Below, piece after piece: positions 3,159 through 32,886 of a stretch of 37,388 bases of DNA (its first letter is position 1; every line of letters starts with the position of its first letter). Source of the DNA: Pseudomonadota bacterium (lineage in GTDB: Bacteria; Pseudomonadota; Alphaproteobacteria; Acetobacterales; Acetobacteraceae); contig JAFEFW010000009.1 in assembly GCA_018240405.1 (NCBI GenBank), forward strand, positions 1 to 37,388, in the 5' to 3' direction. The notes beneath the pieces were generated by a model that was not told the DNA's origin, made no database searches, and saw nothing but the letters and a program-made list of their open reading frames with translations. The translations under genes and the position numbers were made by a program.

Positions 3159-3553
3159 CGACGCGGGCAATATTCGAAACGGTTTGCCACGGTAGTTCCC
3201 GCGCGGAGGCTAGCGGCCCTCGTCCCCGCCGCGTGCCGTGTGGAGGCTCGCGCCTGATCGTCACGGTCGACCGAGGCTTGCGCTCAATCATCATGGCGGC
3301 GAAGGCCCGCCATGACGGTGGAGAGCCTGTGCCGGATCGTCCGACGTCCAACGTAGCTTATCTTAACGCCCATGGGACCTGCGCCCGCCGTGACGGTGGA
3401 GAGCTTGTGCCGCACGTCGAGTGTCAGATGCGGCTTACCCTAACGCACATGGGGCGGAGGCCCACCATCCGCGCCTTGGACCACAAATTCAATCGCGCAT
3501 AATGCTGGTTTGGAAAATGCCGTCTGGCCATCGATGCCGCAGGGAGCGGCGGC
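3159..3553. other. Gene-free region with degraded copies of the dispersed palindromic repeat
   Basis: No convincing gene lies here. The region holds a solo palindrome at 3290-3316 (TCATGGCGG/CCGCCATGA around a CGAAGG core). It is followed by two imperfect copies, about 77 bp apart, of a segment starting GTGACGGTGGAGAG or CATGACGGTGGAGAG and ending near CCTAACGCACATGGG (about 3311-3387 and 3388-3455). A degraded arm (CATGGGGCGGAGGCCCACC, 3448 onward) closes the array. The same tail (ATGACGATGAAAG...GTGCCGCACG) follows the intact copy at 20696-20804, so these are decayed members of that family. Confidence 0.7.
3290..3316. repeat. Solo arm of the dispersed palindromic repeat
   Basis: A perfect outer inverted repeat TCATGGCGG...CCGCCATGA encloses a CGAAGG-type loop. 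Compared with the intact arms at 8255, 20696 and 30732 it has lost one G of the GGCGGGC stem. It is followed directly by GACGGTGGAGAG, the conserved tail found after the other copies. Confidence 0.75.
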
Positions 3554-5958: not shown

Positions 5959-6839
5959 GCGGCCGCCTCCTCTATCAGCACGCGATCGACCAGCCGGACG
6001 ATCTCCTCCGGCCGCTCCTCGTGCGCCAGATGGCCGAGGCCGCGCAGCACGACAATTTCGGCGGACGGCACGGCGGAGCGGATGCGATACGCCTCGGCTG
6101 GCGGGACCATGCCGTCGCGCGTGCCGGTGACCAGCAGCAGGCGCGGCTGCAGCCGACTCATGTCGCGGACCAGGGTCCGCAAATCCCAATTCGCCATCAG
6201 CGCCAGCGCGCCGCGCACATGGCCCGGGTTGGCCGCCAGCCGGCTGTAGTAGCGCATGCCGGCAGCGTCGATGCGCGATCCGGTGGCGCGCAGCAGTCGC
6301 TCAACCGATGACCGTGTGCCGGTGAATAGCGAGACCGCCCAGGCGGCCAGCGGGGTATTGGCCAGGAACCGGGCAGCCGGGGAAAACACCTCATGCGTCA
6401 TGCCCGGGAACGGCAGTAGTGCGCCGTTCAGGCTGATGATCGCGCGCGGCGCCGTCGCGCCGTCCAGGCACATCCGGATCGCAATGGCCGCCCCGGCGGA
6501 ATGCCCGATCATCAGCACCGGCGACAGATCGAGGTAATGCAACAGACCCGCCACGCCGCGCGCCACGCCGGGTAGTGTGTAGCCGGCGGCGGAGGCCGGC
6601 GCAGCAGTGAAGCCGTGGCCAGGCAGATCCGGCATCACCACGGTGAAACGCTCCGCCAGCGCCGGTGCGAGGTCACGCCAGGAATGTGTCGCCGCTCCGG
6701 TACCGTGCAGCAGCAGGACGACCGGGCCGCGTCCCATGACCTGCACATGCCAGCGCTGGCCGGACACGGTGACGAAGCGGCTGGCCTCCCGGTTCGGCCA
6801 GTCGCGGCCGTCGCGTTCCCAGACCGGTCCGGCCGTCAT
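5955..6839 (-). CDS. bchO: BchO, alpha/beta-hydrolase accessory to Mg-chelatase
   Basis: A 294-residue alpha/beta hydrolase at the place where phototrophic Proteobacteria carry bchO, directly after bchD. Visible elements are the oxyanion region VVLLLHGTGAATHSW (40-54), PDLPGHGFTAAP, the nucleophile elbow GHSAG with Ser114, an acid candidate in VTGTRDGMVPP and the catalytic histidine in LGHLAHEE near residue 270. BchO is linked to bacteriochlorophyll synthesis at the Mg-chelatase step, but its exact reaction is not settled. It overlaps bchD by 4 bp upstream and the small membrane gene by 4 bp downstream. Length is normal. Confidence 0.93.
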   Translation of the reverse strand: MTAGPVWERDGRDWPNREASRFVTVSGQRWHVQVMGRGPVVLLLHGTGAATHSWRDLAPALAERFTVVMPDLPGHGFTAAPASAAGYTLPGVARGVAGLLHYLDLSPVLMIGHSAGAAIAIRMCLDGATAPRAIISLNGALLPFPGMTHEVFSPAARFLANTPLAAWAVSLFTGTRSSVERLLRATGSRIDAAGMRYYSRLAANPGHVRGALALMANWDLRTLVRDMSRLQPRLLLVTGTRDGMVPPAEAYRIRSAVPSAEIVVLRGLGHLAHEERPEEIVRLVDRVLIEEAAA

Positions 6840-9028
6840 GCCGCTGCGGCACGGACCGCACGCGACAGTGCGGTCGGATCGGCATAGGGCAGGGGGACGT
6901 ATTGCGCGTGCATCTCGTCCGCGAGTTTACGTGCAAACGGATTGGGACGGGGTGAGGTGTCGATGAACAATGTGGCAATGCCGGTGGCGCGCAGAGCGCG
7001 TCCGGCTGCCAGCGCTTCGGCTTCCGCTTTGGGACGGCCACCGCTGCCGTCGCGGCCGATATTGGCCCGTCCATCCGTCAGAAACGCCACCACCGGCGTG
7101 CGGCCGGTGCGCTTGACCTGATCAGCCAGCGCCGCAGCGGCGTCGATGGCCGCCGCGAGTGGCGTGGGGCCGCCGCCCGGTAAGCCCGCGAGGCTGCGCT
7201 TGGCGCGAGTCAGCGACCCGGTTGGCGGCAGCAGGATCTGCGCGCCCATGCCCCGGAAGGCGATCAGCGCCACCTGATCCCGGCGGACGTAGCAGTCCGC
7301 CAGCAGCAGTTCGACCGCGCCCTTCGCCTCGCCCAGGCGCTGCATCGCCGACGATCCCGAGGCATCGACGGTGAAGATCGTCGTGGTGCCGATGCGCTGG
7401 CGGAAACGGATGATGCGGAAATCGTCGCGCCGGACCTCGAAGCGTGGCGGGCGGTCGCCGGCACTGCGGCGGCGCAGCACCTGCCAGGGCGCAGCGCATT
7501 TCAGCGTCTCCAGCAAATGGAGCCGGTTGCCGTTCTTCGGTTCGCCCTGGCGGGTGCCGATGGGCCGGCCGCGCTTGGTGCTGAGCTTGGTCTGCCCGGC
7601 GCGCCCGGTGGCGCGTGCCTGCCCGCGGCCGTCCTGCTCCATCAGTTTTGCCAGCAGGTCGGCCGGCAGCGCGGCGGCGACGGCATCAAGCACGACATCG
7701 GCGAGGGGCTGGTCGGGGATGACGACCTCCTCGTCATCGGGTGGGGGCTGGTCCTCGGGTGGTGGCGGTTCCGGCTCCTGCTCGTCCTGCGGCGGCGGTG
7801 GGAAGCAGGTGGCGCGGGAGAGAAAGACGAGGCGACCTGCGGTGCCCAGATCGGCATCGGTGATGTCGGTGCGGCCATCCAGCGCCGCGACTGCTCGGGC
7901 GGCGCGGAGGGCGAACAGCGGGGCGCGGATGGAGTCGATGCCGAGGGCGAAGGCGGCGCCGCAGAGGGCCTCGGCCGGGTCGTTGGGGGCCGTGGGGATA
8001 GGGCAGGGGTCAGGGTCGTCGTCATTCCCCACTGCAGTGCAGACGCTGGCCCACGCAGTCGCATCGGCCTCTACCACAGCCGAGTGCGGCGGCGGCGCCC
8101 CTTCCATCGCGGTCGGCAATGGTGCCGTCCTCTCGGTCGAATCGGGCAGTGGCGCCATCCCCTCTATCGAACTGCGCGTTGGCGCCGTCCCCGCTATAGA
8201 ACTGGGCGTTGGCGCGGTCCCCGTTATAGAACTGGGCGTTGGCGCGGTCCCCTTCGTCATGGCGGGCGAAGGCCCGCCATCCACGCCTTGCGGTAATGAA
8301 ACGGTCAAGGACGGTGCTAACTCAACTAAAGGCGTGGATGGCGGGCCTTCGCCCGCCATGACGGTTGAGACTGGGCCTTCGCCCGCCTTGATGGTTGAGC
8401 TTGAGCCTGCGTCAATCGTTACAGCCAGGCGGGCTGATGCGTTGGCATAGGCCTGCCGGTACAACGCCCGCGCCGCTTCAAGCGTTCGCTCGGTCCACGC
8501 CGGATCATCGACGTCCCGCACCGACACGTCCGTCAGGTCCACATGGAACGCCAGCCGGTCCAGCAACGCCGCCGGTGGCCGCTCGTCCTCCGTTACGCCC
8601 TCGTCCAGCGCTACCACGCCGAACCGGGTGGGCAGCGTGCGGGACAGGCCGTCGCGCTGCAGCGTGACGACGCCCTCATCCAGCACCGAACACAATCTCC
8701 CGGCGACGCCTGGCTCGATCCGCTCCGCCATGGCCAGGATCACCACGCCGCCATCCGCCTCCGCCAGCAGGCCCTTCTGCGCAATCGGCTTGCCGGCCTC
8801 CAGGGTCGCCGCCAGATCCAACCCGCCAAGCAGGCGTTCATCGGCGACGTTCAGCGGCAAGCGGCGCAGCGGCTTGCCGGCCTCCAGCGCCTCCTTCAGC
8901 AGCGTCATCCAATGGTCGCGTACCGGGCCGGCGCCGGCGCGGAGCGAAATGCCGCCCAGGCCGACCGGATCGATGGCGAACAGGGCCAGAGCTTGCAGCG
9001 CGTCGGCCCAGGTGGCCGAGGCGCTCAT
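6836..9028 (-). CDS. bchD: Mg-chelatase subunit D (BchD) with a large repetitive insertion
   Basis: Subunit D of the BchI-BchD-BchH magnesium chelatase, which inserts Mg2+ into protoporphyrin IX. The 730 residues comprise an N-terminal AAA+-like region (1-about 200), its helical lid (about 350-405, PAEALCGAAFALGIDSIRAP), the usual acidic proline-rich linker (410-440) and a C-terminal integrin-I domain with an intact MIDAS (D555, S557, S559). Known BchD proteins are about 550-600 residues. The excess is a block at about 203-350 between AAA+ core and lid. It contains a dispersed palindromic repeat (residues 222-258, VMAGEGPPSTPL...GVDGGPSPAMT) and six degenerate 10-residue units (260-319, GTAPTPSSIT type). 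The frame stays open and the motifs are kept, so the gene is probably functional. It overlaps bchI and bchO by 4 bp each. Confidence 0.95.
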   Translation of the reverse strand: MSASATWADALQALALFAIDPVGLGGISLRAGAGPVRDHWMTLLKEALEAGKPLRRLPLNVADERLLGGLDLAATLEAGKPIAQKGLLAEADGGVVILAMAERIEPGVAGRLCSVLDEGVVTLQRDGLSRTLPTRFGVVALDEGVTEDERPPAALLDRLAFHVDLTDVSVRDVDDPAWTERTLEAARALYRQAYANASARLAVTIDAGSSSTIKAGEGPVSTVMAGEGPPSTPLVELAPSLTVSLPQGVDGGPSPAMTKGTAPTPSSITGTAPTPSSIAGTAPTRSSIEGMAPLPDSTERTAPLPTAMEGAPPPHSAVVEADATAWASVCTAVGNDDDPDPCPIPTAPNDPAEALCGAAFALGIDSIRAPLFALRAARAVAALDGRTDITDADLGTAGRLVFLSRATCFPPPPQDEQEPEPPPPEDQPPPDDEEVVIPDQPLADVVLDAVAAALPADLLAKLMEQDGRGQARATGRAGQTKLSTKRGRPIGTRQGEPKNGNRLHLLETLKCAAPWQVLRRRSAGDRPPRFEVRRDDFRIIRFRQRIGTTTIFTVDASGSSAMQRLGEAKGAVELLLADCYVRRDQVALIAFRGMGAQILLPPTGSLTRAKRSLAGLPGGGPTPLAAAIDAAAALADQVKRTGRTPVVAFLTDGRANIGRDGSGGRPKAEAEALAAGRALRATGIATLFIDTSPRPNPFARKLADEMHAQYVPLPYADPTALSRAVRAAAA
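8072..8251 (-). repeat. 30-bp tandem repeat array inside bchD (six units)
   Basis: Six head-to-tail 30-bp units encode the decapeptides GTAPTPSSIT, GTAPTPSSIA, GTAPTRSSIE, GMAPLPDSTE, RTAPLPTAME and GAPPPHSAVV. The units next to the palindromic element are nearly identical and the distal ones are more diverged, as expected if the array grew from the element side. The period is a multiple of three and preserves the reading frame. Confidence 0.93.
8255..8363. repeat. Full-length palindromic element inside bchD
   Basis: Inverted-repeat ends CGTCATGG...CCATGACG with arms of about 35 nt that continue through CCATCCACGCCTT and AAAGGCGTGGATGG. Each arm holds a 7-4-7 hairpin (GGCGGGC-GAAG-GCCCGCC). 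The 37-nt centre is unrelated to that of the other copies. The element is read through without stops in the bchD frame. A 30-bp duplication of its right end (8343-8372 and 8373-8402) follows. Confidence 0.92.
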
Positions 9029-10044
9029 GCGCCCAGAACTTCCTCGACCGCACGGGTCACGCGCGTGCTGGCGACTGCTTCGTCCAACGGGTTCCGGCGC
9101 AGGCGGTGGCCGAGCACCATGCAGGAGACGCGGCGGAGGTGGGCATCGGTGACCGCGTCATCGCCATCCAGCGCCGCCAGGGCACGCGCCGCGCGGATCA
9201 ACGTCAACTCGCCGCGCAGCCCGTCGGTGCCAAGCGCCATGCATAGCCTGGCAGCGTGCTCCAGGGCCTCATCGGCGACGGACACGTTGGGCAGCCGGCC
9301 GCGGCCGGTGACGATCTTGCGCCGCAGCTTGTCCTGCGCCTTGTGCCAATGGTCGAGGAACGGCACCGGGTCGCGTTCGAACGCGTCCCGGCGGCGGATG
9401 ACCTCGATGCGCGTCGGCAGGTCGGTCGGCGTGCGGACTTCCACTGACAGGCCGAAGCGGTCGATCAACTGCGGGCGGAGGTCGCCTTCCTCGGGATTGC
9501 CGCTGCCGATCAACACGAACTTCGCCGGGTGGCGGATGGAGAGTCCCTCGCGCTCGACCACGTTTTCGCCAGAGGCGGCGACATCCAGCAGCAGGTCGAC
9601 GAGGTGGTCCTCCAGCAGGTTGACCTCATCGATATACAGGAAGCCGCGGTTGGCCCTCGCGAGCAGGCCGGGCTCGAAGACTTTCTGACCGGTCAGCGCG
9701 CGTTCAAGGTCGAGTGCGCCGACTACGCGGTCTTCGGTGGCGCCGAGCGGAAGATCGACGACCGGAACCGGCACTGTGACGGCCTTGCCTTTGCCTTTCT
9801 CGTGACACTCGGCGCACCAGGCATCCGGTGTCGTGGGGTCGCAATGATAGCGGCAGCCGGCGATCGCCTTCATCGGTGGCAGCAGCGCGGCCAGGGCGCG
9901 TACGGTGGTGGACTTGCCAGTGCCGCGGTCGCCGAAGGCGAGCACACCGCCGATACCTTGGTCGACGGCGGCGATCAGCATGGCGAGCTTCATGTCGTCT
10001 TGGCCGACGATGGCCGCGAACGGGAAGACGGGACGGGCCGTCAT
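9025..10044 (-). CDS. bchI: Mg-chelatase ATPase subunit I (BchI)
   Basis: A 339-residue AAA+ ATPase that forms the hexameric motor of magnesium chelatase with BchD and powers Mg2+ insertion by BchH. Walker A GDRGTGKS lies at 38-45, Walker B LYIDEVNLL at about 142-150, followed by the sensor/arginine region SGNPEEGDLRPQLIDRFGL. The cysteine-bearing insertion (CRYHCDPTTPDAWCAEC) typical of BchI is present. I chose the ATG at 10044; an in-frame TTG two codons upstream is less likely. It is the first gene of the bchI-bchD-bchO unit, with a promoter-like site about 45-75 bp upstream. No bchH is in the window. Confidence 0.96.
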   Translation of the reverse strand: MTARPVFPFAAIVGQDDMKLAMLIAAVDQGIGGVLAFGDRGTGKSTTVRALAALLPPMKAIAGCRYHCDPTTPDAWCAECHEKGKGKAVTVPVPVVDLPLGATEDRVVGALDLERALTGQKVFEPGLLARANRGFLYIDEVNLLEDHLVDLLLDVAASGENVVEREGLSIRHPAKFVLIGSGNPEEGDLRPQLIDRFGLSVEVRTPTDLPTRIEVIRRRDAFERDPVPFLDHWHKAQDKLRRKIVTGRGRLPNVSVADEALEHAARLCMALGTDGLRGELTLIRAARALAALDGDDAVTDAHLRRVSCMVLGHRLRRNPLDEAVASTRVTRAVEEVLGA

Positions 10045-10088
10045 GGGCAACTCGAATTCAGGAGGGGGAGAGGAAAGCGCACCCCAGG

Positions 10089-10268: not shown

Positions 10269-12491
10269 TCAATGAAGCGTCGGCTTATCGCCGGGTCGCC
10301 GATCCTTGGGCGCGAGCATGTTCCGGTCGCGGCCCCAACTTGTCGCGTGCCACACTAGGTAACGCAGCACCTCTGCCGTCCGCGCGACTGATGCCCGGAT
10401 GGCTTCCAGCATCTCTGGCATGCGCGTCGTGTCGATCCGGTCGGTTATCTCCAGCGCGGCAAGCTGGGCGTTTTCCACGACCTTTGCCAGCAGGTTCCGG
10501 AACACGAGGTCACCCCCGGTGTCCAACTGACCCGATCGGGTCGGGCCCTGTTGCAGGACGACTTCCTGGAACCGCCGTCGCGCCGTCTCTGCGGCCTTGC
10601 GCTCCGTCAGGTCGGTGACCATCAGCACGACACCGAGGGTGCGATTGGGAGCCGTAAAGACCGGGTCCGCGCGGATCAGCAACGGCGTCGTGCCGCCGCC
10701 GGGTCCAATCATGGCAACTTCACCGCGCCATGATTTGTGCTCCCGCAGCAGGTCGCGCAGCCGGCTCTCGGCCTCCTCCTGCTCCGCCCACAGCGGCAGC
10801 AGGTCGTTCAGGTGCGCAGGAGGCGCATCCAGCTTGGGCAGCAGCGCTTCAAACGCGGCGTTCATCTTCAGGATGTGACCGTCGGTGCTGGCAATTACCA
10901 CAGGCTGGCTTGCTGCCTGCACCTCGCGCCGCACCTGCTCCAACTGATCCTGTGCGAACAGCATCCGCACCGCGCGGAACTGCATGATCACGTCGCTGAC
11001 CGACTCGCCGATCAGCCGCGCCGCGGCCTGGTCGGATTCGCTCCATGCATCCGACGTCCCTTCGACAAGCTGGTGCCACTGCGCGAACGAACGGCGCGGC
11101 GACAGCGTCTTCGGGTCGTCACCGAACGACACTGGCTTGAACGGGTTGCCACCCCAGGTCACGGTGCGGACGCGTTCCGGCCGGAGCCAGATCAGGTACT
11201 CGCCGGGCCCAGTGGAGACCGGGACGGCCAGCAAGCCGCTGGCAATCGGTGTCAGCGGGGTGAAGTCCGGCGCGTCGTCGGGCAGCGTGGCCGTCGCCAG
11301 CACGCCCTCGCGCGGTTGCGAATCAAGCCAGCGGCCAAGCTCCCGCAGGTCCGCCGTCGATGGCACGTCACCAACGGTCCGCACTTCATTTTCAAACAGC
11401 AGAGCGGCGCCGGTGGCCTGCACCGGTTCCAGCAGCGCGCGCGATCCGTCGAACAGCGCACCGCGCCAGTCGCCCTCCTGCGAGATCGCCCGGATCATGC
11501 GCTGCTCCAGGCGGCGGACCGAGAGTTCGGCCTGCGCATGGGCAAAGCTTTCGAGCGCTGCGATCCGCGTGGCGACCGCCTCGGCCAGCAGTTCGGTCAC
11601 CGCCCTGGTTTCAAAATGAATGAAGCGAGGCTCATAGTGATGGCAGGAGATCAGCCCCCACAGCCGGCCGCTGACCAGCAGCGATACCACCAGCGTCGCC
11701 CGCACGCCCATGTTCTTCAGGTACTGGACATGGATCGGCGATGAACTGCGCAGGAAGCACAGCGACATGTCGAGGTGATCGCCGGTGAGTGGCGACAGCA
11801 CCGGCGTCAATGGCACCGGCGCGAAATCGACATCGACGAGCAGCCGCACGCGGTTCCGTTCGTAAAGCCGGCGGGCAATCTGCGGAATATCCGACGCCGG
11901 ATAATGATTGCCGAGGAACGCCTCCAGATGCGGTTCGCGTGCCTCGGACATGACCTCGCCGTGGCCGTGTTCGTCAAACCGATAGACCATCACCCGGTCG
12001 TAGCCGGTGATGGCCTTGACGATGCGGGCGGTCTCATCGCCCAGGCCGCGAATCGTGCCGGCGGCCATGATGGCCTGCAGCGCGCTATCGAGCGTACTGG
12101 ACAGGTCGACCACCGGCCCGGCCGGCTCCAGCTCGACGATCAGGCCGCCGCCGCTCGGCCGGTGGATAAGGCCGTCAAACATGCGTGGTGGCTCGCCGAT
12201 GGAGCATCGCACGCCGCGCGCAACGTCAGTTAGCGGGTCGTTGAGGTGCGGGCGCAGGCTTGCCGCAAGGTCGCCAGGAATATCCGCCAGCGTGCGGCCA
12301 ATCAGCGTATCTGGCAGTGCCAGGAAGGACGCGGCGTTGGCGCTGGTCTGGACGATGACATTGCCGTCCCTGGAGAGGTGCAGCAACGCGCCATGCGGCT
12401 GGATAGACCCGGCGAGGTGGATCTGCTCCCGCTCGCAGTTCGAGAGGTCAGCCTCTCCAAACGCTGGCCCCATGGCTGCTCGGGTCAGCAC
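10269..12491 (-). CDS. bphP: Bacteriophytochrome with PAS/two-helix output, no kinase domain
   Basis: A red/far-red photoreceptor of 740 residues. I chose the GTG at 12491 (GGGGGA and AAGGA upstream, 31 bp after ppsR); an ATG at 12473 is possible. PAS begins near 14 with the biliverdin-attaching Cys19 in SNCEREQIHLAG and SIQPHGALL. GAF carries YPASDIPQIARRLYERN and SSPIHVQYLKNMGVRA. PHY has the PRxSF-type tongue (SPRRSFAQW). A second PAS (about 505-620) and a C-terminal helical segment (about 630-720, RRRFQEVVLQQG to AEVLRYL) follow. There is no HisKA or HATPase. This matches the RpBphP1 layout, in which the output region binds the PpsR2 repressor. Adjacency to ppsR and heme oxygenase supports the same light-relief mechanism here. 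Confidence 0.93.
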   Translation of the reverse strand: MLTRAAMGPAFGEADLSNCEREQIHLAGSIQPHGALLHLSRDGNVIVQTSANAASFLALPDTLIGRTLADIPGDLAASLRPHLNDPLTDVARGVRCSIGEPPRMFDGLIHRPSGGGLIVELEPAGPVVDLSSTLDSALQAIMAAGTIRGLGDETARIVKAITGYDRVMVYRFDEHGHGEVMSEAREPHLEAFLGNHYPASDIPQIARRLYERNRVRLLVDVDFAPVPLTPVLSPLTGDHLDMSLCFLRSSSPIHVQYLKNMGVRATLVVSLLVSGRLWGLISCHHYEPRFIHFETRAVTELLAEAVATRIAALESFAHAQAELSVRRLEQRMIRAISQEGDWRGALFDGSRALLEPVQATGAALLFENEVRTVGDVPSTADLRELGRWLDSQPREGVLATATLPDDAPDFTPLTPIASGLLAVPVSTGPGEYLIWLRPERVRTVTWGGNPFKPVSFGDDPKTLSPRRSFAQWHQLVEGTSDAWSESDQAAARLIGESVSDVIMQFRAVRMLFAQDQLEQVRREVQAASQPVVIASTDGHILKMNAAFEALLPKLDAPPAHLNDLLPLWAEQEEAESRLRDLLREHKSWRGEVAMIGPGGGTTPLLIRADPVFTAPNRTLGVVLMVTDLTERKAAETARRRFQEVVLQQGPTRSGQLDTGGDLVFRNLLAKVVENAQLAALEITDRIDTTRMPEMLEAIRASVARTAEVLRYLVWHATSWGRDRNMLAPKDRRPGDKPTLH

Positions 12492-12522
12492 AGATCCTTT
12501 CCCCCGATACCGGTCTGTCGGT

Positions 12523-13905
12523 TTACTCGGTGTCCGCTTCCGTGTCAGCGGTGACCCGCGAGTGACCTTCCATCTCGTATTGCGCCAGCTTCTTGTAGAA
12601 GCCCTGGCGGCTGAGCCCAAGGATTTCGGCCGCCGCCGTGCGGTTACCGTCCGACAATTCCAGCGCCGCGGCAATATAGTGCCGTTCGACCAGGCCCACA
12701 GCGTCCTTGATCAGCATGCGCAAAGAGGTCTTACCACCTTGCTCGATCACGGCGGCGAGCGCGGACTGCAGCCCGGATGCTGCCTCCTGCGCCGGCAGAC
12801 GCCGTGTGACATCACGCATCAGCAGCGCGACATGAGCCGGCCGGCCGCCATTGGTCGCGGCCCCGACGGCGGAAATCTCCACCTCCGTCTCCGCGCCCAG
12901 TTCGCCGTGGATCGTGGTCGAGAACAGCCGCACAGAGCCGTGCCGGTTCAGGTTCGAGGTCAGGACTGTCAGGTCGGCGCCTGGCCGCGAGAGCCAGCGA
13001 CTTAGGCGCTCACCCAGAATGGCGCCCTCGGCCCCGACCTGGACGAGGTCGAGAAAGGCGCGGTTGACACGCTGGATGACGCCGCCGCGGTCGATAATGA
13101 CGAAGGCATCAGGCAGGCGGTCGATGAAGTCATCCAGCGAAATCTGGTCTTTTTCATCCGCAGCCACCGGCGGCCCGCCCGCCGGCGACAGTTGCACCAG
13201 AAACATCGGGCTTGGATCGCTTGCCATGAGCGTCGCGCGGGCGATCCAGGCTGCCTGGTTGGGCCCGAGATGCAGCAGCGTGCCCGGCGCACGGCCGCTT
13301 TGACGTACGCGGTAGAGCATCGCCTGGAACGACTCGACATCCTGCGGCCCCAGTTCGCGCACCAGCTCACGACCACGGGCCAAACCGAGGGCGCGGATCG
13401 CGGCGGGGTTAGCATCGGCAATGCGCAACGTATCCGCATTCAGCATCAGCACGGCTTCGTTCGAGGCATCGAACAGCACGCGGTAGCGGGTTTCAACCTC
13501 CCGCAACTTCCAGTAGTCCTGCTCCATCGCCTGCTGGGCGGCGACAAGACGGGCCTGCAGTTCAGCGACAGCCTTCAGGTTCCGTCCAATGGCCATCAGG
13601 CCGGCCCTGCCGCCGAGTCGGACGGTCGTATACTCCATCGGCAGCTCGAGGCCGCTGGGGAAGCGCTGGTTGACCTGTCTATACGCAGAGACACCGCGCT
13701 CGCGCGCGTCCTCCACCATGCGTTGAACTTTGCTGCCGCCACTGTCAGCGATGGTTTCCACCCAGGGACGGCCGCGCCACTCCTCTGCTGCCTCCTCGGC
13801 GACCTCGTTCGACAAAGTCGCATGCTGGATCACGCCCTCCAGGTCCAGGAGCAACGTGACATCGGGCTGGGCGATTTGAACGCCCGGGACGGCCGCAGTG
13901 GAAAT
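12523..13905 (-). CDS. ppsR: PpsR/CrtJ-type photosynthesis gene regulator (probable ATT start)
   Basis: A transcription factor of about 460 residues with three PAS domains (about 10-115, 140-240, 260-365), a Q-linker helix (AELQARLVAAQQAMEQDYWKL) and a Fis-type HTH (NRTAAAEILGLSRQGFYKKL). PpsR proteins bind TGT-N12-ACA and control bch, crt and puc genes. The first usual start in frame is a TTG at 13854, but that would cut into the N-terminal PAS strand (AQPDVTLLLDLEGVI). Upstream a perfect AGGAGG lies 5 nt before an in-frame ATT at 13905, which gives the normal family length; a stop precedes at 13935. No cysteine occurs anywhere, unlike redox-sensing PpsR/CrtJ. A promoter lies at 13956-13985. 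Confidence 0.93.
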   Translation of the reverse strand: MSTAAVPGVQIAQPDVTLLLDLEGVIQHATLSNEVAEEAAEEWRGRPWVETIADSGGSKVQRMVEDARERGVSAYRQVNQRFPSGLELPMEYTTVRLGGRAGLMAIGRNLKAVAELQARLVAAQQAMEQDYWKLREVETRYRVLFDASNEAVLMLNADTLRIADANPAAIRALGLARGRELVRELGPQDVESFQAMLYRVRQSGRAPGTLLHLGPNQAAWIARATLMASDPSPMFLVQLSPAGGPPVAADEKDQISLDDFIDRLPDAFVIIDRGGVIQRVNRAFLDLVQVGAEGAILGERLSRWLSRPGADLTVLTSNLNRHGSVRLFSTTIHGELGAETEVEISAVGAATNGGRPAHVALLMRDVTRRLPAQEAASGLQSALAAVIEQGGKTSLRMLIKDAVGLVERHYIAAALELSDGNRTAAAEILGLSRQGFYKKLAQYEMEGHSRVTADTEADTE

Positions 13906-20501: not shown

Positions 20502-20973
20502 GGGCTTCGTTGGCTTGAGCCTGTGCTTCGTCTCTACTGCCGTCGCGGCGGGCGCGGGCTCTTTATACGTTGAAACAGGCCTGTCGGTGGCGGCCGTTGC
20601 TCTCTCGTCATGGCGGTGGCCGTTGCTATTTCGTCATGTCAGGCCTGCGCTCTATTGGCCTTTAGATTGGCCAATTTGGGCGATCGTTGATTTCTCGTCA
20701 TGGCGGGCGAAGGCCCGTCATCCACGCCTTGCGGTTGAGAATCCCGCGCAGAAACAGCGCCTTTGCGGCCAAGCCGTGGATGCGGGCCTTCGCTCGTCAT
20801 GACGATGAAAGTCGGTGCCGCACGCCAGGCGTCCGATACAGCTTTAGCTGAACGCCTGGTATCTGCGTTCCCAGTTCCGCCAAATCAGCGAAAAGGGGAG
20901 TGCACCGCGTTGGGCGCCAGGACAGTCAGCGGACGGCACGGATGCCGGCACGCCGCAACTTTACGGGTCCCGC
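20502..20973. other. Convergent intergenic region filled by the palindromic repeat
   Basis: No gene seen. Two truncated heads of the repeat (TCTCTCGTCATGGCGG near 20601 and ATTTCGTCATG near 20628) sit in an approximate 26-bp tandem duplication starting GGCCGTTGCT (20592 and 20618). They precede the full-length element at 20696-20804. A conserved tail GATGAAAGTCGGTGCCGCACG follows, ending near 20858. Because the flanking genes converge, the hairpins could also serve as a two-way terminator. Confidence 0.7.
20696..20804. repeat. Full-length palindromic element, intergenic copy
   Basis: 109 bp with ends CGTCATGG/TCATGACG. Arm 1 holds GGCGGGC-GAAG-GCCCGTC followed by ATCCACGCCTTGCGG. Arm 2 is the diverged reverse complement beginning GCCAAGCCGTGGATGCGGG. 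Length and ends match the copies in bchD and pbpC; the centre differs. Confidence 0.92.
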
Positions 20974-28500: not shown

Positions 28501-30664
28501 GCCGGGTGCCTGGGTCAGCGTTGCCGCGGTGGACGAGGGCATCCTGCGCCTGACCCGCTTCGTCTCCCCCGACCCAGCGCCGCATTTCCTCGGCCGCCGC
28601 ATCCTGGGCCTGGATATCCGTGACGACTGGGGCCGCCTGCTGGCGCCGCCGGACGGCACGCCAACCGTGCTGCGGCAGGGCGGCGACGAGTTCGGCACCA
28701 TGCCGCGCGAGGATCCCACGCGGACCGTGACGCTGTTCTTCCCGCCGATGCAGGCCGGGCCGGACGGCGTCGTGCAGGTGCCGCTGGATATCGGCGACTT
28801 CAACGGCCAGGTGCGGCTCATGGCGGTGGCCTGGCAGGGCAGCCGGATCGGCTCCGCCTCGGCCGACGTCATCGTACGCGACCCGCTGATCGCCGAGGCG
28901 CTGCCGCCGCGCTTCCTCGCCCCCGGAGACGAAGCCAGGCTGGCCGTGCTGCTGCATAATCTGGACCTGCCGGGCGGCGAGGCCAGCGCGAAAATCTCGC
29001 TGGAAGGGCCGTTGACGCTGACCGGTCCGGATCGGCTGAGCGCGAACCTTGCGCCGGGTGCCAGTGCCGTGCCGTTCACGTCGCTTAAGGCAACCGGTGC
29101 CGGGACTGCGGTGATCCGGCTGCAGGCCAGCGGGCCCGACCGGTTCAACGTCACGCATGAATGGCGGCTGACGGTGGCGCCCGCTCGCCCGGCGGTGACG
29201 GTGGTCAGCGGTCAGGAGGTAGCCCCCGGCGCCGAGGTGAAGCTGCCCGTGCCGATTGCCTCCTTTATCCCCGGCACCTGGACCGCCACCGCCACACTCG
29301 GCGCGCCGGTGCGCTACGATGTCGGCGCGCTGACCGAGGCGCTGGAAGAGTACCAGATGACCTGCCTGGAGCAGCTCACGAGCCGCGGCCTGCCGTTGGT
29401 GATGCTCCCCGATGGCGCCTTCCCTTGGGGCGATCGCGCCGGGCGCCTGCAGGCTTCCGTCAACGCCGTGCTCGACCGGCAGCGCTATGACGGGTCCTTC
29501 GCCTTGTGGCGCGCCAGCGGCGAGCCGGTGGCCTGGCTGTCCAACTACGCGGTCGAATTCCTGCTGCGCGCGCGCAAGGCCGGTGCCGTGGTGCCGCCTC
29601 CGGCGATGGAGGCTGCGCTGAAGCGCCTGGGCGAAGACAGCGAAGGTCCGGACAATACCGCGGAGTCGCGCGCGGACTACGCCTACCGGCTGTACGTGCT
29701 GGCCATGGCCGGGCGCGGCGAACCCGGCGCGGCGCGGGTACTGTTCGAGCAATTGAAGGACCTGCCGACGCCACTGGCCAAGGCGCAGCTTGGGGCCGCC
29801 CTGGCGCTGGCGCACGACACGCCGCGCGCCGAGGCGGCGTTTGCCGCCGCGGTCGCTGCGCCGGCGCGGAAATGGTGGTCGTTCGACTACGGCTCGACGC
29901 TGCGGGACCAGGCAGCAACGCTGGTACTGATGAAAGAGAGCGGCGTCGTCCAGGACAAGGTGACGCTGCTGGCGGCCTCGCTGCCGGGCGCCGACCTCGC
30001 GGTGCAGCGGCTCAACACGCAGGAGCAGGCGTGGCTTGTCGCCGCGGCCGGCGCGCTCGGCCGCACCGGGGGCAACACCCAGGTGATGCTGAACGGTACG
30101 AAACTGCCGGAGGCGCCGGTTGTCTCATCCCGGCTGGCGCAGGAGGCGACGCTGCAGAATCTGGGCCGGCGGGCTGTCTGGGCCAGCGTCGCTACGGCCG
30201 GCGTTCCCGCCACGCCGCTGCCGGCCTCGCGCAATCAGATGCAGATCCGGCGGAAGTTCTTCACGCTGGGTGGCGAGACGCTGAACCTCGATACGCTGAA
30301 GCAGAACACCAGCTTTGTGCTGGTGCTGGAGGGCAAGGCCGAGGACGGGATGGAGCGCACGGCGCTGCTGACCCAGGGCCTGCCGGCAGGCTGGGAGGTC
30401 GTCGGTCGTATTTCCGACGGTGCCGCCGCCGGGATGCCCTGGCTGGCGGACCTCACCGAGGTGGACGCGCAGGCGGCGGCCGATGACCGGTTCGCCGCGG
30501 TGCTGTCGCTGAAGGACAAGCCGGAGTTCCGCATCGCCGTGCGGCTGCGGGCAGTGACACCGGGCTCGTTCGAGCTGCCGGGCGCCGAGGTGTCGGATAT
30601 GTACGCCCCCGCCGTCTACGCACGGCAGGGCGTGAACCGCATCAAGGTGCTGCCGCCTGAATGA
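25562..30664 (+). CDS. Bacterial alpha-2-macroglobulin (protease-trapping defence protein)
   Basis: A 1700-residue periplasmic alpha-2-macroglobulin. I chose the ATG at 25562, which begins a clear signal peptide (MLLRLLAVLLILFGTLAHG, cleavage after AWA); it has no lipobox, unlike the lipoprotein of E. coli (YfhM). N-terminal helical repeats (about 60-190) precede macroglobulin domains, including the MG-type segment DSYVWLDRGIYRPGETV near 510. The thioester motif CLEQ is intact (Cys1268 in YQMTCLEQLTSR) in an alpha/alpha-toroid region, with a C-terminal receptor-like domain. The thioester traps attacking proteases. Its TGA overlaps the pbpC ATG by 4 bp, the usual pairing, in which PBP1C repairs peptidoglycan while the macroglobulin blocks proteases. 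Confidence 0.95.
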   Translation: MLLRLLAVLLILFGTLAHGPAWADDPIPSGLQSDSSAWIRELAKAFPAGSNAQQKKDADQQVAAALAKKDAPAAITALERRIGMGDVQAPTFLTIARLYAERSPPDWRKALAAATRAYSYTDAADQQAQALLLIAKGLRAQGLHAAAIPVLEAAVDRADTPANKALLADAQRAVGVLLREVRTESEADPARACVSFSVPPTRRTDFQPQDWVRIDPAQQNIAVTLEGKEICVSGLPWAATTKLTFKSGMPAEQGLSLTADLIVPVAMPGRKPRIDFDTRFYVLPRGQVPAVTLNTVNLSSVNLKLMRLTERNIPPFLRDSKLGEPVSKWTATEIGETNGRVVWEGKADIPTWQPNRTARTKLPFPESLANAGPGLYALLATPGDGTRDYDVASVQMVLRTDLAPTVWRGSDGLTVQVRSYGDAEPRAGVRLDLLARNNDILGQATTDADGVGRFPIALLRGEGPLAPSVVHAFGGPDDFAALDLTTASFDLSDRGVSGQAHPGPIDSYVWLDRGIYRPGETVQVMALLRDNAGRPLDIPARVTVRRPNGQVFTQATPPRQADGAIHLPVTLSRGAAAGTWSVELHADPNGAPIGSTDFRVDNFIPDRLAVEMPSPPQFLPVGRKTTIGVTARYLYGAPAAQLSAEGSLRLEVDATPFADRAGWRFGLVDEPFAPDQIPVTVPTTDGDGRTELAVTLDKVPDTTRPLKAELEVAVNDPSGHAAYARASLPVRGTAPLIGLKPGFIDDAVNADTEAAFDIVALKPDGTPTAMKARLRLVRERPDWRLVMRDGSARYQTVWKDEPLETRDIDLKADAPLHVTKTLPWGRYRIEVAQTGGMAITSYRFRSGWASSESPDVPDKVDVSVDRPMAPAGENVRVHIDAPFAGQATLLVLSDRVHALRNLPVPAGGTEVSIPVSADWGPGAYVTVHVFRGGTDSKRPNRAIGLVWVGVDPSARKLDVAFEAPQRTAPRQRTVVPLRTAPGAWVSVAAVDEGILRLTRFVSPDPAPHFLGRRILGLDIRDDWGRLLAPPDGTPTVLRQGGDEFGTMPREDPTRTVTLFFPPMQAGPDGVVQVPLDIGDFNGQVRLMAVAWQGSRIGSASADVIVRDPLIAEALPPRFLAPGDEARLAVLLHNLDLPGGEASAKISLEGPLTLTGPDRLSANLAPGASAVPFTSLKATGAGTAVIRLQASGPDRFNVTHEWRLTVAPARPAVTVVSGQEVAPGAEVKLPVPIASFIPGTWTATATLGAPVRYDVGALTEALEEYQMTCLEQLTSRGLPLVMLPDGAFPWGDRAGRLQASVNAVLDRQRYDGSFALWRASGEPVAWLSNYAVEFLLRARKAGAVVPPPAMEAALKRLGEDSEGPDNTAESRADYAYRLYVLAMAGRGEPGAARVLFEQLKDLPTPLAKAQLGAALALAHDTPRAEAAFAAAVAAPARKWWSFDYGSTLRDQAATLVLMKESGVVQDKVTLLAASLPGADLAVQRLNTQEQAWLVAAAGALGRTGGNTQVMLNGTKLPEAPVVSSRLAQEATLQNLGRRAVWASVATAGVPATPLPASRNQMQIRRKFFTLGGETLNLDTLKQNTSFVLVLEGKAEDGMERTALLTQGLPAGWEVVGRISDGAAAGMPWLADLTEVDAQAAADDRFAAVLSLKDKPEFRIAVRLRAVTPGSFELPGAEVSDMYAPAVYARQGVNRIKVLPPE

Positions 30665-32886
30665 GCGACGGCCCGGCCACTGACCGCGTGCCCGGCTTTG
30701 GTGGGGCTGGGGCGTCAGCGCCAGCTTCCCCCGTCATGGCGGGCGGAGGCGCGCCATCCACGCCTTTGTCGATCAAAGGCTCGGGCCGCGACGTCCTCGA
30801 TACCGCCAGGCGTGGCTGGCGGGCCTTCGCCCGCCGCGACGGTGAAAGGTTCCACCATGGCGGTGGAGGGTTCCACCACGGCGGTGAGGGGACCCGCCAC
30901 GGCGATGAAATGGCTGGTCGTGGTAACGAAATGGCCCGTCGTCACGGTGGTGGCCGTTCGCTCCGCTGGACCGCTGCCGCCTTCGCCGCGGCGGCCGTAA
31001 TCGCCATCATCGCCGTCGTCCTTGACAGGCTCTTCCCGCCGAACCTCACACGCCTCGCTGAGACCGGCAGCGAGATTGTCGACCGAAATGGCCGGACCCT
31101 TGCCCTCCGCCCGGCACCCGGCGGCGTTTGGCGGCTGCGTACGGGTGTCGAGGACGTTTCTCCCGCCTTGATCGACACCCTGATTGCCACCGAGGATCGC
31201 CGTTTCTGGCACCATCCCGGTATTGACCCGCTTGCCCTTGCGCGCGCCGCGCTGTCCGACCTGCGCGCCGGGCGCATCGTCTCCGGCGGCTCCACCCTCA
31301 CCATGCAGGCCGCCCGGCTGTTGGAACCGCGGCCGCGCACCATCCGCAGCAAGCTGATCGAAATCGCCCGTGCGCTCCAGCTGGAGGCGCATTACAGCAA
31401 GCGGGACATCCTCGGCATGTGGCTGACGCTCGCGCCGATGGGAGGTAACCTCGAGGGGGTGCGCTCCGGCAGCCTGGCCTGGTTCGGCGCTTCGCCGCGT
31501 ATGCTGGAACCGGCACAGGCGGCGCTGCTGGTTGCCATTCCGCGGCGGCCGGAAGCGCTGCGGCCGGACCGCCACCCGGACCAGGCACTGGCCTTGCGCA
31601 ATCGCATCCTGACGGCCAACGGCGCCGCGGACGCACGCGCCATACCGGTTCCTGCCGCCCGCGTAAGGCTGCCCCGCCACGCCTTCCAGGCATTCGCCGG
31701 CCTGCCTGCACAGCCGCGCATCGCCACGACACTCGACCTCCCTCTGCAGGAGGCGCTGGAACGGTTGGCGGCGCAGCGGCTGGACACGCTGCCGGCTCGC
31801 GCCTCGCTGGCGATGCTGATCGCCGACGCCCGGACGCGGGAGATCCGGGCCCTGGTGCCCGGCGACAGCCAGGGCGGTGAGGCGCGCGGCTCTGCTCTGG
31901 ATCTGACGCGAGCGGTCCGCTCACCCGGATCGGCGCTCAAGCCGTTCATCTATGCGCTGGCGTTCGCCGATGGCTGGGTTGGACCGGAGACCGTGCTGAG
32001 CGACCTGCCGCGCCGCTTCGGCGCCTATGCGCCGGAAAATTTTGACCGCGGCTTCCACGGCACCGTCACCGCGGCGGACGCGCTGCGGCAATCGCTGAAC
32101 CTGCCGGCGGTGGCACTGCTCGACCGGGTCGGACCGCTGCGGTTCCAGACGGCACTGAAGGCCGGTGGTGTGTCCCTGGTCTTGCCCAACCGGGCAACGG
32201 CCTCGCTGCCTCTGGCGCTCGGCGGCGCCGGAATCACGCTGCGACAGGCGGCCGGGCTTTATGCCGCGCTTGCCACCGACGGCCAGGGCGGCGCGCTGCG
32301 CTTGCTGCGCGACCAGCCAGCCGAAACGCGCCCGTTCCTCGATCCACGGGCCGCAGCCACGGTCGCCGCGGTGCTGACACAGCGCCTGCCGGATGGGGGG
32401 CAGAGCGGCATTGCCTGGAAGACCGGAACAAGCTGGGGTGGCCGCGACGCCTGGGCGCTGGGGTTCGACCAGTCGCATGTGGTCGGCGTGTGGATCGGCC
32501 GCCCAGACGGCACACCGCTGCCTGGCGCCACCGGCCGGTCACTGGCGCTGCCGATGCTGTCGCGCGTGTTCGACCTGTTGCCGGAGGCGCCACGTCCCGA
32601 TCCGGAGCTGCGCCCCACGATCGTGCACCGGGCGCCGCCGCCACGGGCGGATGCGCTGCGCCTGCTGTTTCCGCCGGATCAGGCGGTGATTTCCGACGAT
32701 GGCGCGGTGACGCTGCGGGCGATGGGTGGCCGCCGGCCGCTGACCTTTTTGATCGACGGTGCCCGGCTCGAGACCGACGCTGCCCGCCGCGAAGTGTCGT
32801 GGCTGCCGCCGTCGCCCGGGTTCTACAAGATTACGGTGGTGGATGCCGACGGCACGGCAGCGCAGGCAGCGGTGCGGGTACGGTAG
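30661..32886 (+). CDS. pbpC: Penicillin-binding protein 1C with repeat-bearing N-terminal extension
   Basis: A 741-residue bifunctional peptidoglycan synthase: membrane anchor about 101-121; GT51 transglycosylase with catalytic Glu178 in ATEDRRFWHHPG and GGSTLTMQ; transpeptidase with S424-A-L-K427, S478-L-N480 and K587-T-G; C-terminal BiPBP_C domain (from about 665). It pairs with the upstream alpha-2-macroglobulin by a 4-bp overlap. Odd feature: the cytoplasmic tail before the anchor is about 100 residues. It consists of the palindromic element (about residues 24-60: VMAGGGAPSTPL...RRGWRAFARRDG) and a Gly/His-rich heptapeptide array (61-97: GERFHHG, GGGFHHG, GEGTRHG, DEMAGRG). The conserved part begins only near residue 100, so the tail is an acquired, probably disordered addition. 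Confidence 0.95.
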   Translation: MSDGPATDRVPGFGGAGASAPASPVMAGGGAPSTPLSIKGSGRDVLDTARRGWRAFARRDGERFHHGGGGFHHGGEGTRHGDEMAGRGNEMARRHGGGRSLRWTAAAFAAAAVIAIIAVVLDRLFPPNLTRLAETGSEIVDRNGRTLALRPAPGGVWRLRTGVEDVSPALIDTLIATEDRRFWHHPGIDPLALARAALSDLRAGRIVSGGSTLTMQAARLLEPRPRTIRSKLIEIARALQLEAHYSKRDILGMWLTLAPMGGNLEGVRSGSLAWFGASPRMLEPAQAALLVAIPRRPEALRPDRHPDQALALRNRILTANGAADARAIPVPAARVRLPRHAFQAFAGLPAQPRIATTLDLPLQEALERLAAQRLDTLPARASLAMLIADARTREIRALVPGDSQGGEARGSALDLTRAVRSPGSALKPFIYALAFADGWVGPETVLSDLPRRFGAYAPENFDRGFHGTVTAADALRQSLNLPAVALLDRVGPLRFQTALKAGGVSLVLPNRATASLPLALGGAGITLRQAAGLYAALATDGQGGALRLLRDQPAETRPFLDPRAAATVAAVLTQRLPDGGQSGIAWKTGTSWGGRDAWALGFDQSHVVGVWIGRPDGTPLPGATGRSLALPMLSRVFDLLPEAPRPDPELRPTIVHRAPPPRADALRLLFPPDQAVISDDGAVTLRAMGGRRPLTFLIDGARLETDAARREVSWLPPSPGFYKITVVDADGTAAQAAVRVR
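30732..30841. repeat. Full-length palindromic element inside pbpC
   Basis: 110 bp. Arm 1 runs CGTCATGGCGGGCGGAGG...CATCCACGCCTTT and arm 2 CAGGCGTGGCTGGCGGG...GCCGCGACG. It is read without stops in the pbpC frame. Arm 1 encodes the same peptide as arm 1 in bchD (VMAGxGxPSTPL); arm 2 falls in another frame. Confidence 0.9.
30841..30950 (+). repeat. 21-bp tandem repeats in pbpC (about five units)
   Basis: Units of the form GGTGAAAGGTTCCACCATGG repeat with a 21-bp period directly after the palindromic element. They encode GERFHHG, GGGFHHG, GEGTRHG, DEMAGRG and a degenerate NEMARRHGG. Divergence increases away from the element. The period keeps the frame. Confidence 0.88.

Follow-up and report, generated by a model that had tools for sequence, protein, structure and literature searches.

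Background

Palindromes that code for protein are known chiefly from Rickettsia, Wolbachia and some genomes rich in REPs, and protein-coding tandem repeats are known as intragenic minisatellites. Among palindromes, the CGTC-tagged REPs are described as carrying a CGTC end tag, a stem that starts with AT and a CCA tail, as forming head-to-head dimers, and as having no dedicated transposase (Di Nocera et al. 2013, PMC3733652). According to that description, some CGTC REPs lie inside genes, REP clusters code for 43–82 amino acids, REPs occupy roughly one position in recB of two Xanthomonas species, and two Rickettsia palindromic elements (RPEs) of R. conorii, RPE-4 and RPE-6, are classed as CGTC REPs. 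It gives four sets, which include a stem of 8 bp with a loop of 4 or 5 nt and a stem of 9 bp with a loop of 5 nt, and states that CGTC repeats are missing in Acetobacteraceae. A guanylate kinase that bears an RPE is reported to be translated and active, with a changed substrate affinity (PMC2229807), and the same source lists intragenic MITEs (ERIC/RU-1, Correia) with terminal inverted repeats and target duplications.

Here we analyse a window of 37,388 nucleotides (contig JAFEFW010000009.1 of assembly GCA_018240405.1) from a Rhodopila-like genome of the Acetobacteraceae, designated G000, together with genomes of the same genus (G002 to G030 below). In this window the gene for the magnesium chelatase subunit BchD contains, in frame, a dimer of a CGTC-tagged REP and an array of 30-bp repeats. 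The occurrence in Acetobacteraceae, the apparently repeated capture of REPs by one BchD linker, and the decapeptide arrays beside REPs are new, whereas intragenic CGTC REPs, including RPE-4 and RPE-6, were already known from the account in PMC3733652. Titles and abstract beginnings in the open-licence PMC literature yielded no published report of this insert or of REPs in BchD.

The bchD gene and its insert

The bchD gene (6836–9028, minus strand) is an open reading frame of 730 amino acids, identified by a profile search in which it scored 786.7 bits against NCBIfam NF009943 (cut-off 571). Its partner bchI (9025–10050, minus strand) lies 5' of it and overlaps it by 4 bases, and the gene order is bchI, bchD, bchO, with overlaps. 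Pfam places AAA_lid_2 at residues 354–420 and VWA_2 at 550–653 of BchD. The domain order of ChlD and its requirement for the MIDAS motif are given in PMC6604950, and the motif required there is intact in this BchD, as DASGS at residues 555–559, invariant in all 10 aligned BchDs. A genome-wide search gave no second BchD match in G000. Directly 5' of bchI lies a gene for a BphP-like bacteriophytochrome (window 10269–12674, minus strand), which scores 358.8 bits and is under its family cut-off of 1040.

The host part of the linker between the AAA+ core and the helical lid, placed by alignment and AlphaFold2 blocks at residues ~164–200 (8429–8539, minus strand), precedes the insert in gene direction; the host linker runs to about residue 206, and the extra segment extends from about residue 207 or 213 to 349. 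All parts of the insert are read from the minus strand. They are, in gene direction, a partial 30-bp copy of the REP end (residues 213–222, IKAGEGPVST; 8363–8392), which matches the REP unit at 22 of 30 positions; the REP dimer (residues 222–258; 8255–8363); three residues; a downstream array of six 30-bp units of the APTPSSITGT type (residues 262–321; 8066–8245), delimited by tandem-repeat detection and a register test; and an acidic, proline-rich tail (residues 322–349; 7982–8065), read from the translation, after which the lid follows. Tandem-repeat detection reported 30-bp arrays at 8115–8253 (4.6 copies, 83% match) and 8343–8399 (1.9 copies, 92%). A preliminary description of this DNA had claimed a palindrome and 30-bp repeats in frame in BchD, with frame and MIDAS motif intact and the insert placed between core and lid, and all of this is borne out. 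Its extent of 203–350 holds roughly and is refined here; its repeats on both sides of the element turn out to be lopsided, with six units downstream and just one clear partial copy upstream.

Two copies of a CGTC-tagged REP, head to head and with the CGTC ends outside, make up the palindrome, which lies in frame in the core-to-lid linker. Its inverted-repeat arms (8234–8289 and 8329–8384) are 86% complementary across a spacer of 39 nt, and the two 31-nt REP cores, at 8255–8285 (plus) and 8333–8363 (minus), fit the core pattern without a mismatch, so that CGTC stands at 8255 and GACG ends at 8363. The RNA of 8250–8370 has a predicted folding energy of -86.1 kcal/mol (z -14.1), which none of 200 shuffles equalled. 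The REP unit reads CGTC-ATGGCGGGC-GAAG-GCCCGCCAT-CCA, that is, a stem of 9 bp starting with AT, a loop of 4 nt and a CCA tail, within the range for CGTC REPs (stem of 8–9 bp from AT, loop of 4–5 nt, CCA-like tail), and the dimer encodes TVMAGEGPPSTP...GVDGGPSPAMT (residues 222–258).

The array probably derives from a REP half plus its flank, judging from its register. Aligned in register, the six units together agree with the 30-bp REP-half unit at 98 positions (13–18 of 30 in each unit), and none of the other 29 rotations gives more than 66; when the comparison is limited to the 21 REP bases, the register leads only narrowly, with 63 matches to no more than 56, and the sixth unit by itself matches in register no better than out of register. 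The six units diverge further with distance from the dimer. The BchD linker of G008 contains exact half-REP units whose period and phase agree with those of the array (GPSPAMTKPS in G008, APTPSSITGT in G000), which makes this derivation likely, though short of proof. As in intragenic minisatellites, the 30-bp period keeps the frame and the units beside the seed are most alike; unlike them, the unit here seems to start from a REP half.

In a codon-usage model the insert falls below coding sequence, at -0.14 where its flanks have 0.24–0.38, which counts against the explanation favoured below. The protein exceeds the four complete REP-less BchDs of the genus (G018, G013, G002 and G030; 572–604 amino acids) by 126–158 amino acids. 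We also drew evenly a sample of 398 genomes of the family, 115 of which have BchD; among the 95 single full-length pieces (seven with a flagged in-frame stop) that of G000 is the longest, and it exceeds the mean of the 90 from outside the genus (567 amino acids, range 538–592) by 163.

A structure model was one of the checks proposed in the preliminary description. In AlphaFold2 (29 sequences) the block mean pLDDT is mostly above 90 at residues 1–190 and 351–410 and below 50 at 207–335, and it falls from 97 at 181–190 to 74 at 191–200 and 49 at 201–210, so that in the model the insert lacks confident structure between confident domains. The model as a whole has a mean pLDDT of 73.5 and a pTM of 0.47, and because of the latter the arrangement of the domains is not settled. 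A Foldseek search of the PDB returned BchI (1g8p) first, over 460 columns, which agrees with the domain layout and adds no proof; the solved relatives found by sequence are BchI/ChlI chains and, for the VWA part of BchD, 2x31.

A CGTC REP family in the genome and the genus

Allowing up to three mismatches, we counted 127 copies of the REP core in the 7,368,472 bases of G000 and none of its reversed control; REP matches are present in 28 of 34 genomes of the genus. We surveyed 57 fetched regions of G000, two of them in the window itself, taken from the listed sites less those near contig ends. They contain 65 REP clusters, namely 45 plus/minus pairs with CGTC outside, 18 single copies and two triples, and 43 of the 45 pairs span 107–111 bp, the dimer in bchD spanning 109 bp. 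A survey of G008 covered 60 regions round zero-mismatch sites, less C93 (which has bchD) and C111:33400, and there only 16 of 78 clusters are head-to-head pairs.

In both genomes the REPs are mostly intergenic. A cluster was called intragenic if one open frame, with coding signal on both sides under a codon-usage model from 76 long ORFs, ran through it. By this rule 5 of 65 clusters in G000 and 7 of 78 in G008 are in-frame candidates, counts that leave out-of-frame gene disruption aside and rest on differing flank limits (60/60 amino acids in G000, 50/30 in G008). Such rarity would fit the removal of most insertions into coding sequence. The tandem repeats that abut REP clusters have periods of 30 (L138), 18 (L139), 64 (L135), 23 (L142) and 14 bp (L119) where the cluster is not intragenic, and of 30, 30, 15 and 21 bp in BchD, a hydantoinase-like protein and PbpC; in genes, to judge from these few cases, frame-keeping periods may be those that survive. 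The spacing of hemi-REPs was put aside as a sign of frame selection: in relatives, multiples of three make up 32 of the 33 spacings, in a set biased by being picked through protein matches, and the 69 in G000 that were picked by DNA pattern are mixed in this respect.

Compared with the CGTC REPs as described in PMC3733652, the family in G000 agrees in its tag, the initial AT, the 9-bp stem, the 4-nt loop, the CCA tail, the dimers, the intragenic copies and the lack of a transposase, and its copies are numerous and scattered, mostly dimeric and mostly intergenic. A RAYT was considered as the mobiliser in G000 and dropped, because no match to PF01797 (RAYT/Y1 transposase) was found at E <= 0.01 in this assembly, which is 97.57% complete; the control was positive in 6 of 14 genomes. 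Three features differ from that description: the REPs are abundant here in a genus of the Acetobacteraceae, the combination of stem 9 and loop 4 is outside its four sets, and the insert in BchD is longer and has an in-frame tandem array.

The preliminary description had likened the insert to Rickettsia palindromic elements, and the likeness is closer than was thought, in that RPE-4 and RPE-6 are CGTC REPs; this kinship is taken from the classification in PMC3733652, as distinct from a comparison of RPE sequences. In both cases palindromic repeats lie in frame in conserved proteins, whereas the host here is a phototroph and arrays of 30-bp units flank the element. The intragenic MITEs listed in PMC2229807 are likewise non-autonomous, short and joined in frame to genes; the insert in BchD differs from that listing in having no readable target duplication.

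REPs in other proteins

To read the insert in BchD as a stand-alone case would be too strong, since relatives have REPs in the same BchD linker and G000 has them in CobN and a hydantoinase-A-like protein as well. The five candidates in G000 are BchD, CobN, a hydantoinase-A/oxoprolinase-like protein, a GDSL esterase whose REP precedes the domain, and one ORF without a family; this last, L156, was dropped because it matched no NCBIfam or Pfam family. The CobN of G000 scores 1279 bits against NF008973, and its best-scoring stretch starts at residue 261, just past the REP at about residues 220–255. CobN has in-frame REP dimers at different sites in G000 (L140, G000:C635 659–766) and in G008 (L175, G008:C75).

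In G008, HypF has two in-frame REPs, a dimer between the zinc-finger and Sua5 domains and a single copy near the C-terminus, and REPs are spanned by the Pfam domain of a nitrogenase-component-like protein (83–476) and by that of CitG (268–575); the remaining candidates there are a protein carrying an FeS-assembly domain and two whose family support is no more than weak. MurD of G020 (L194, G020:C211; TIGR01087 match) contains an in-frame REP dimer, and in G005 (L193, G005:C166) a REP has beside it a flanking peptide identical to that of G020, the assignment to MurD resting there on the peptide. A molybdopterin oxidoreductase of G019 repeats the architecture of BchD, its REP dimer being flanked on either side by decapeptide repeats. 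REP material also stands ahead of the domain in BchM of G025 and G008, where the true start is uncertain, and before the domain in a GH5 cellulase-like protein of relatives. The list of REP-bearing proteins in relatives was found by protein similarity and is thus biased, and several of its other entries are short frames without coding signal or family. In-frame insertion into conserved proteins, as known for RPEs, is thus seen in BchD, CobN, MurD, HypF and others.

The core-to-lid linker in related BchDs

BchD was found in 10 of the 34 genomes of the genus. Measured between script anchors, its linker has 190 amino acids in G000, 115 in G010, 67 in G025, 54 in G006, 52 in G013, 51 in G030, 31 in G002 and 30 in G018, with G008 divided between two contigs, each ending within the linker, and G021 cut. 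Of the 80 named loci, regular-expression anchors gave a linker length for 58, which in 27 cases was exactly 38 amino acids, and none for 22; several values are mis-anchored (L065, L075, L076, L086, L087 and L090 among them), hence the mode alone was used.

The linker of G025 contains a REP dimer that shares both type and reading frame with the one in G000 (VMAGEGPPSTP...GVDGGPSPAMT). In G008 the first contig shows a degenerate half, then one REP and the beginning of its partner, where the contig breaks off; on the next contig lie four exact 30-bp units, each of 21 bp of REP and 9 further bases, flanked on both sides by partial units. The linker of G006 reads as a REP dimer collapsed between its arms. 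In the linker of G010 the dimer belongs to another CGTC subfamily, with 409 copies in that genome, and is read in a different frame from that in G000; it aligns over 79 bp with 16 fetched resident dimers, chosen from zero-mismatch pairs, at a best score of 86, and 300 base shuffles of the linker gave at most 31. Behind the G010 dimer (L007) comes a further CGTC-like stretch, perhaps the decayed remains of a third REP type. The short linkers of G030, G013, G002 and G018 have no REP; G030 has 278 copies in its genome and none in BchD, so REP load alone is no predictor of capture. As far as these alignments indicate, the linker is a permissive site in which related species would have captured REPs too, one of them of a different subfamily.

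Among the BchDs of G006, G025 and G008, dN/dS is 0.050–0.065 (549 codons, linker left out), and against G030 it is 0.165–0.203 (164 codons). These ratios indicate purifying selection on BchD in REP-bearing relatives.

Origin of the insert

The insert is probably near-neutral, selfish REP DNA that entered a permissive linker and was followed by in-frame growth of an array. A CGTC REP dimer, from a family of 127 copies, would have entered the flexible linker between core and lid, and since the frame is kept the insertion would have been retained under purifying selection. From the dimer, a 30-bp unit made up of a REP half and its flank would then have been duplicated in tandem, giving an array that grew and diverged in frame, perhaps by slippage and with occasional collapse. 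The result would be a disordered extra segment of about 140 residues, translated as a loop, which survives where the linker tolerates length and probably has a near-neutral effect on chelation. None of the compared genomes has a close empty-site allele of G000 against which junctions or a target duplication could be read.

Three insertions into the BchD linker are the simplest reading of the distribution, and one that the BchD tree favours. This tree (linker removed, 15 rows, midpoint root) leaves 6 of 12 inner branches open and its deep forks are weak, and in it the REP-less G030 is sister to G006, G025 and G008 at 100/100, with G000 and G010 elsewhere. A single ancestral insertion in the genus, followed by many losses or replacements, is unlikely by comparison. 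It would account for the REP type and reading frame common to G000 and G025, the G006 linker suggests that in-frame collapse of a dimer can occur, and the weakness of the deep forks leaves it room. Against it, G030 lies next to three REP-bearing genomes, the linker flanks differ in that a helix-like part kept in G000 is absent from G025 and G006, and one gain with losses fails to explain G010, whose REP is of another subfamily and in another frame. We infer that insertion was probably independent in G000 and in the G006/G025/G008 lineage.

A function for the insert, either as a 35-bp hairpin that tunes relative expression from the bchI-bchD-bchO message or as a disordered spacer that alters BchI:BchD assembly, is distinctly improbable. 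Repeated occupation of this one linker across several lineages, the great stability of the predicted hairpin and the order of the overlapping genes speak for it; set against these are the four relatives with a short, REP-less linker, the variation of the insert in length and sequence among close relatives, and the occupation of many unrelated proteins by like REPs. Also rather doubtful is a wider reading in which Rhodopila REP dimers are a recurring source of coding sequence, entering permissive enzyme linkers (those of the chelatase subunits BchD and CobN included), seeding in-frame arrays and making long disordered linkers that selection may use, for example in tuning BchI-BchD assembly or message stability.

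An assembly artefact, a pseudogene or a spliced-out insert is very hard to credit. The assembly is fragmented (681 contigs) and the G008 contigs break inside the linker, but contiguous in-frame REP material stands at the same place in the separate genomes G025 and G006, the frame is open through 730 codons, and the genome gave no second BchD match. Removal of the insert by splicing, which the preliminary description had named as a finding that would overturn its reading, has no support in the sequence: the insert matches no intein domain in Pfam and no intron model in Rfam, where four matches at E <= 1 are miRNA or sRNA hairpin models below gathering scores (MIR6136, mir-346 and BTH_s39 were rejected on that ground). 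The other such finding, a block conserved in distant orthologs as a domain or regulatory module, has a negligible probability, for although relatives hold material in the same linker, residues 203–348 match no Pfam family, none of the 90 BchDs from outside the genus is long enough, and a genome-wide repeat explains the sequence, so that this reading was rejected for the family sample.

Coding palindromes thus stand in conserved enzymes (BchD, MurD, CobN, HypF) of a genus with phototrophic members. What appear to be stages of REP capture can be compared at one locus, from a short linker through a dimer alone, a dimer with an exact array and a dimer with a diverged array to an apparent collapsed remnant, beside another lineage's own REP. 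Capture, array growth and loss can be tested directly here, at a defined linker in an AAA+ enzyme whose biochemistry is well studied, and the BchD linker is a case for asking what share of disordered protein sequence repeats generate.

Further REP copies

A second in-frame REP dimer in the window (30732–30841) lies in the gene for penicillin-binding protein 1C (PbpC; 30661–32886, plus strand; TIGR02073, 580 bits). With a 21-bp tandem repeat (30840–30904) it falls in the N-terminal tail, before a hydrophobic, membrane-helix-like stretch, and the start could lie downstream; N-terminal cases of this kind went uncounted in the survey of G000, whose rule asked for 60 codons on either side. In G006 a frame of 941 codons (L177, G006:C70, 1580–4402, minus strand) runs from a phenylglyoxylate dehydrogenase beta-like (PadI-like) part through a REP dimer to a PaaK-like ligase, possibly a gene fusion through a REP. 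More REP and half-REP copies occur in the window at 20589–20805 and 3305–3479, with spacings of 26–78 bp, and lie between the main ORFs as far as checked.
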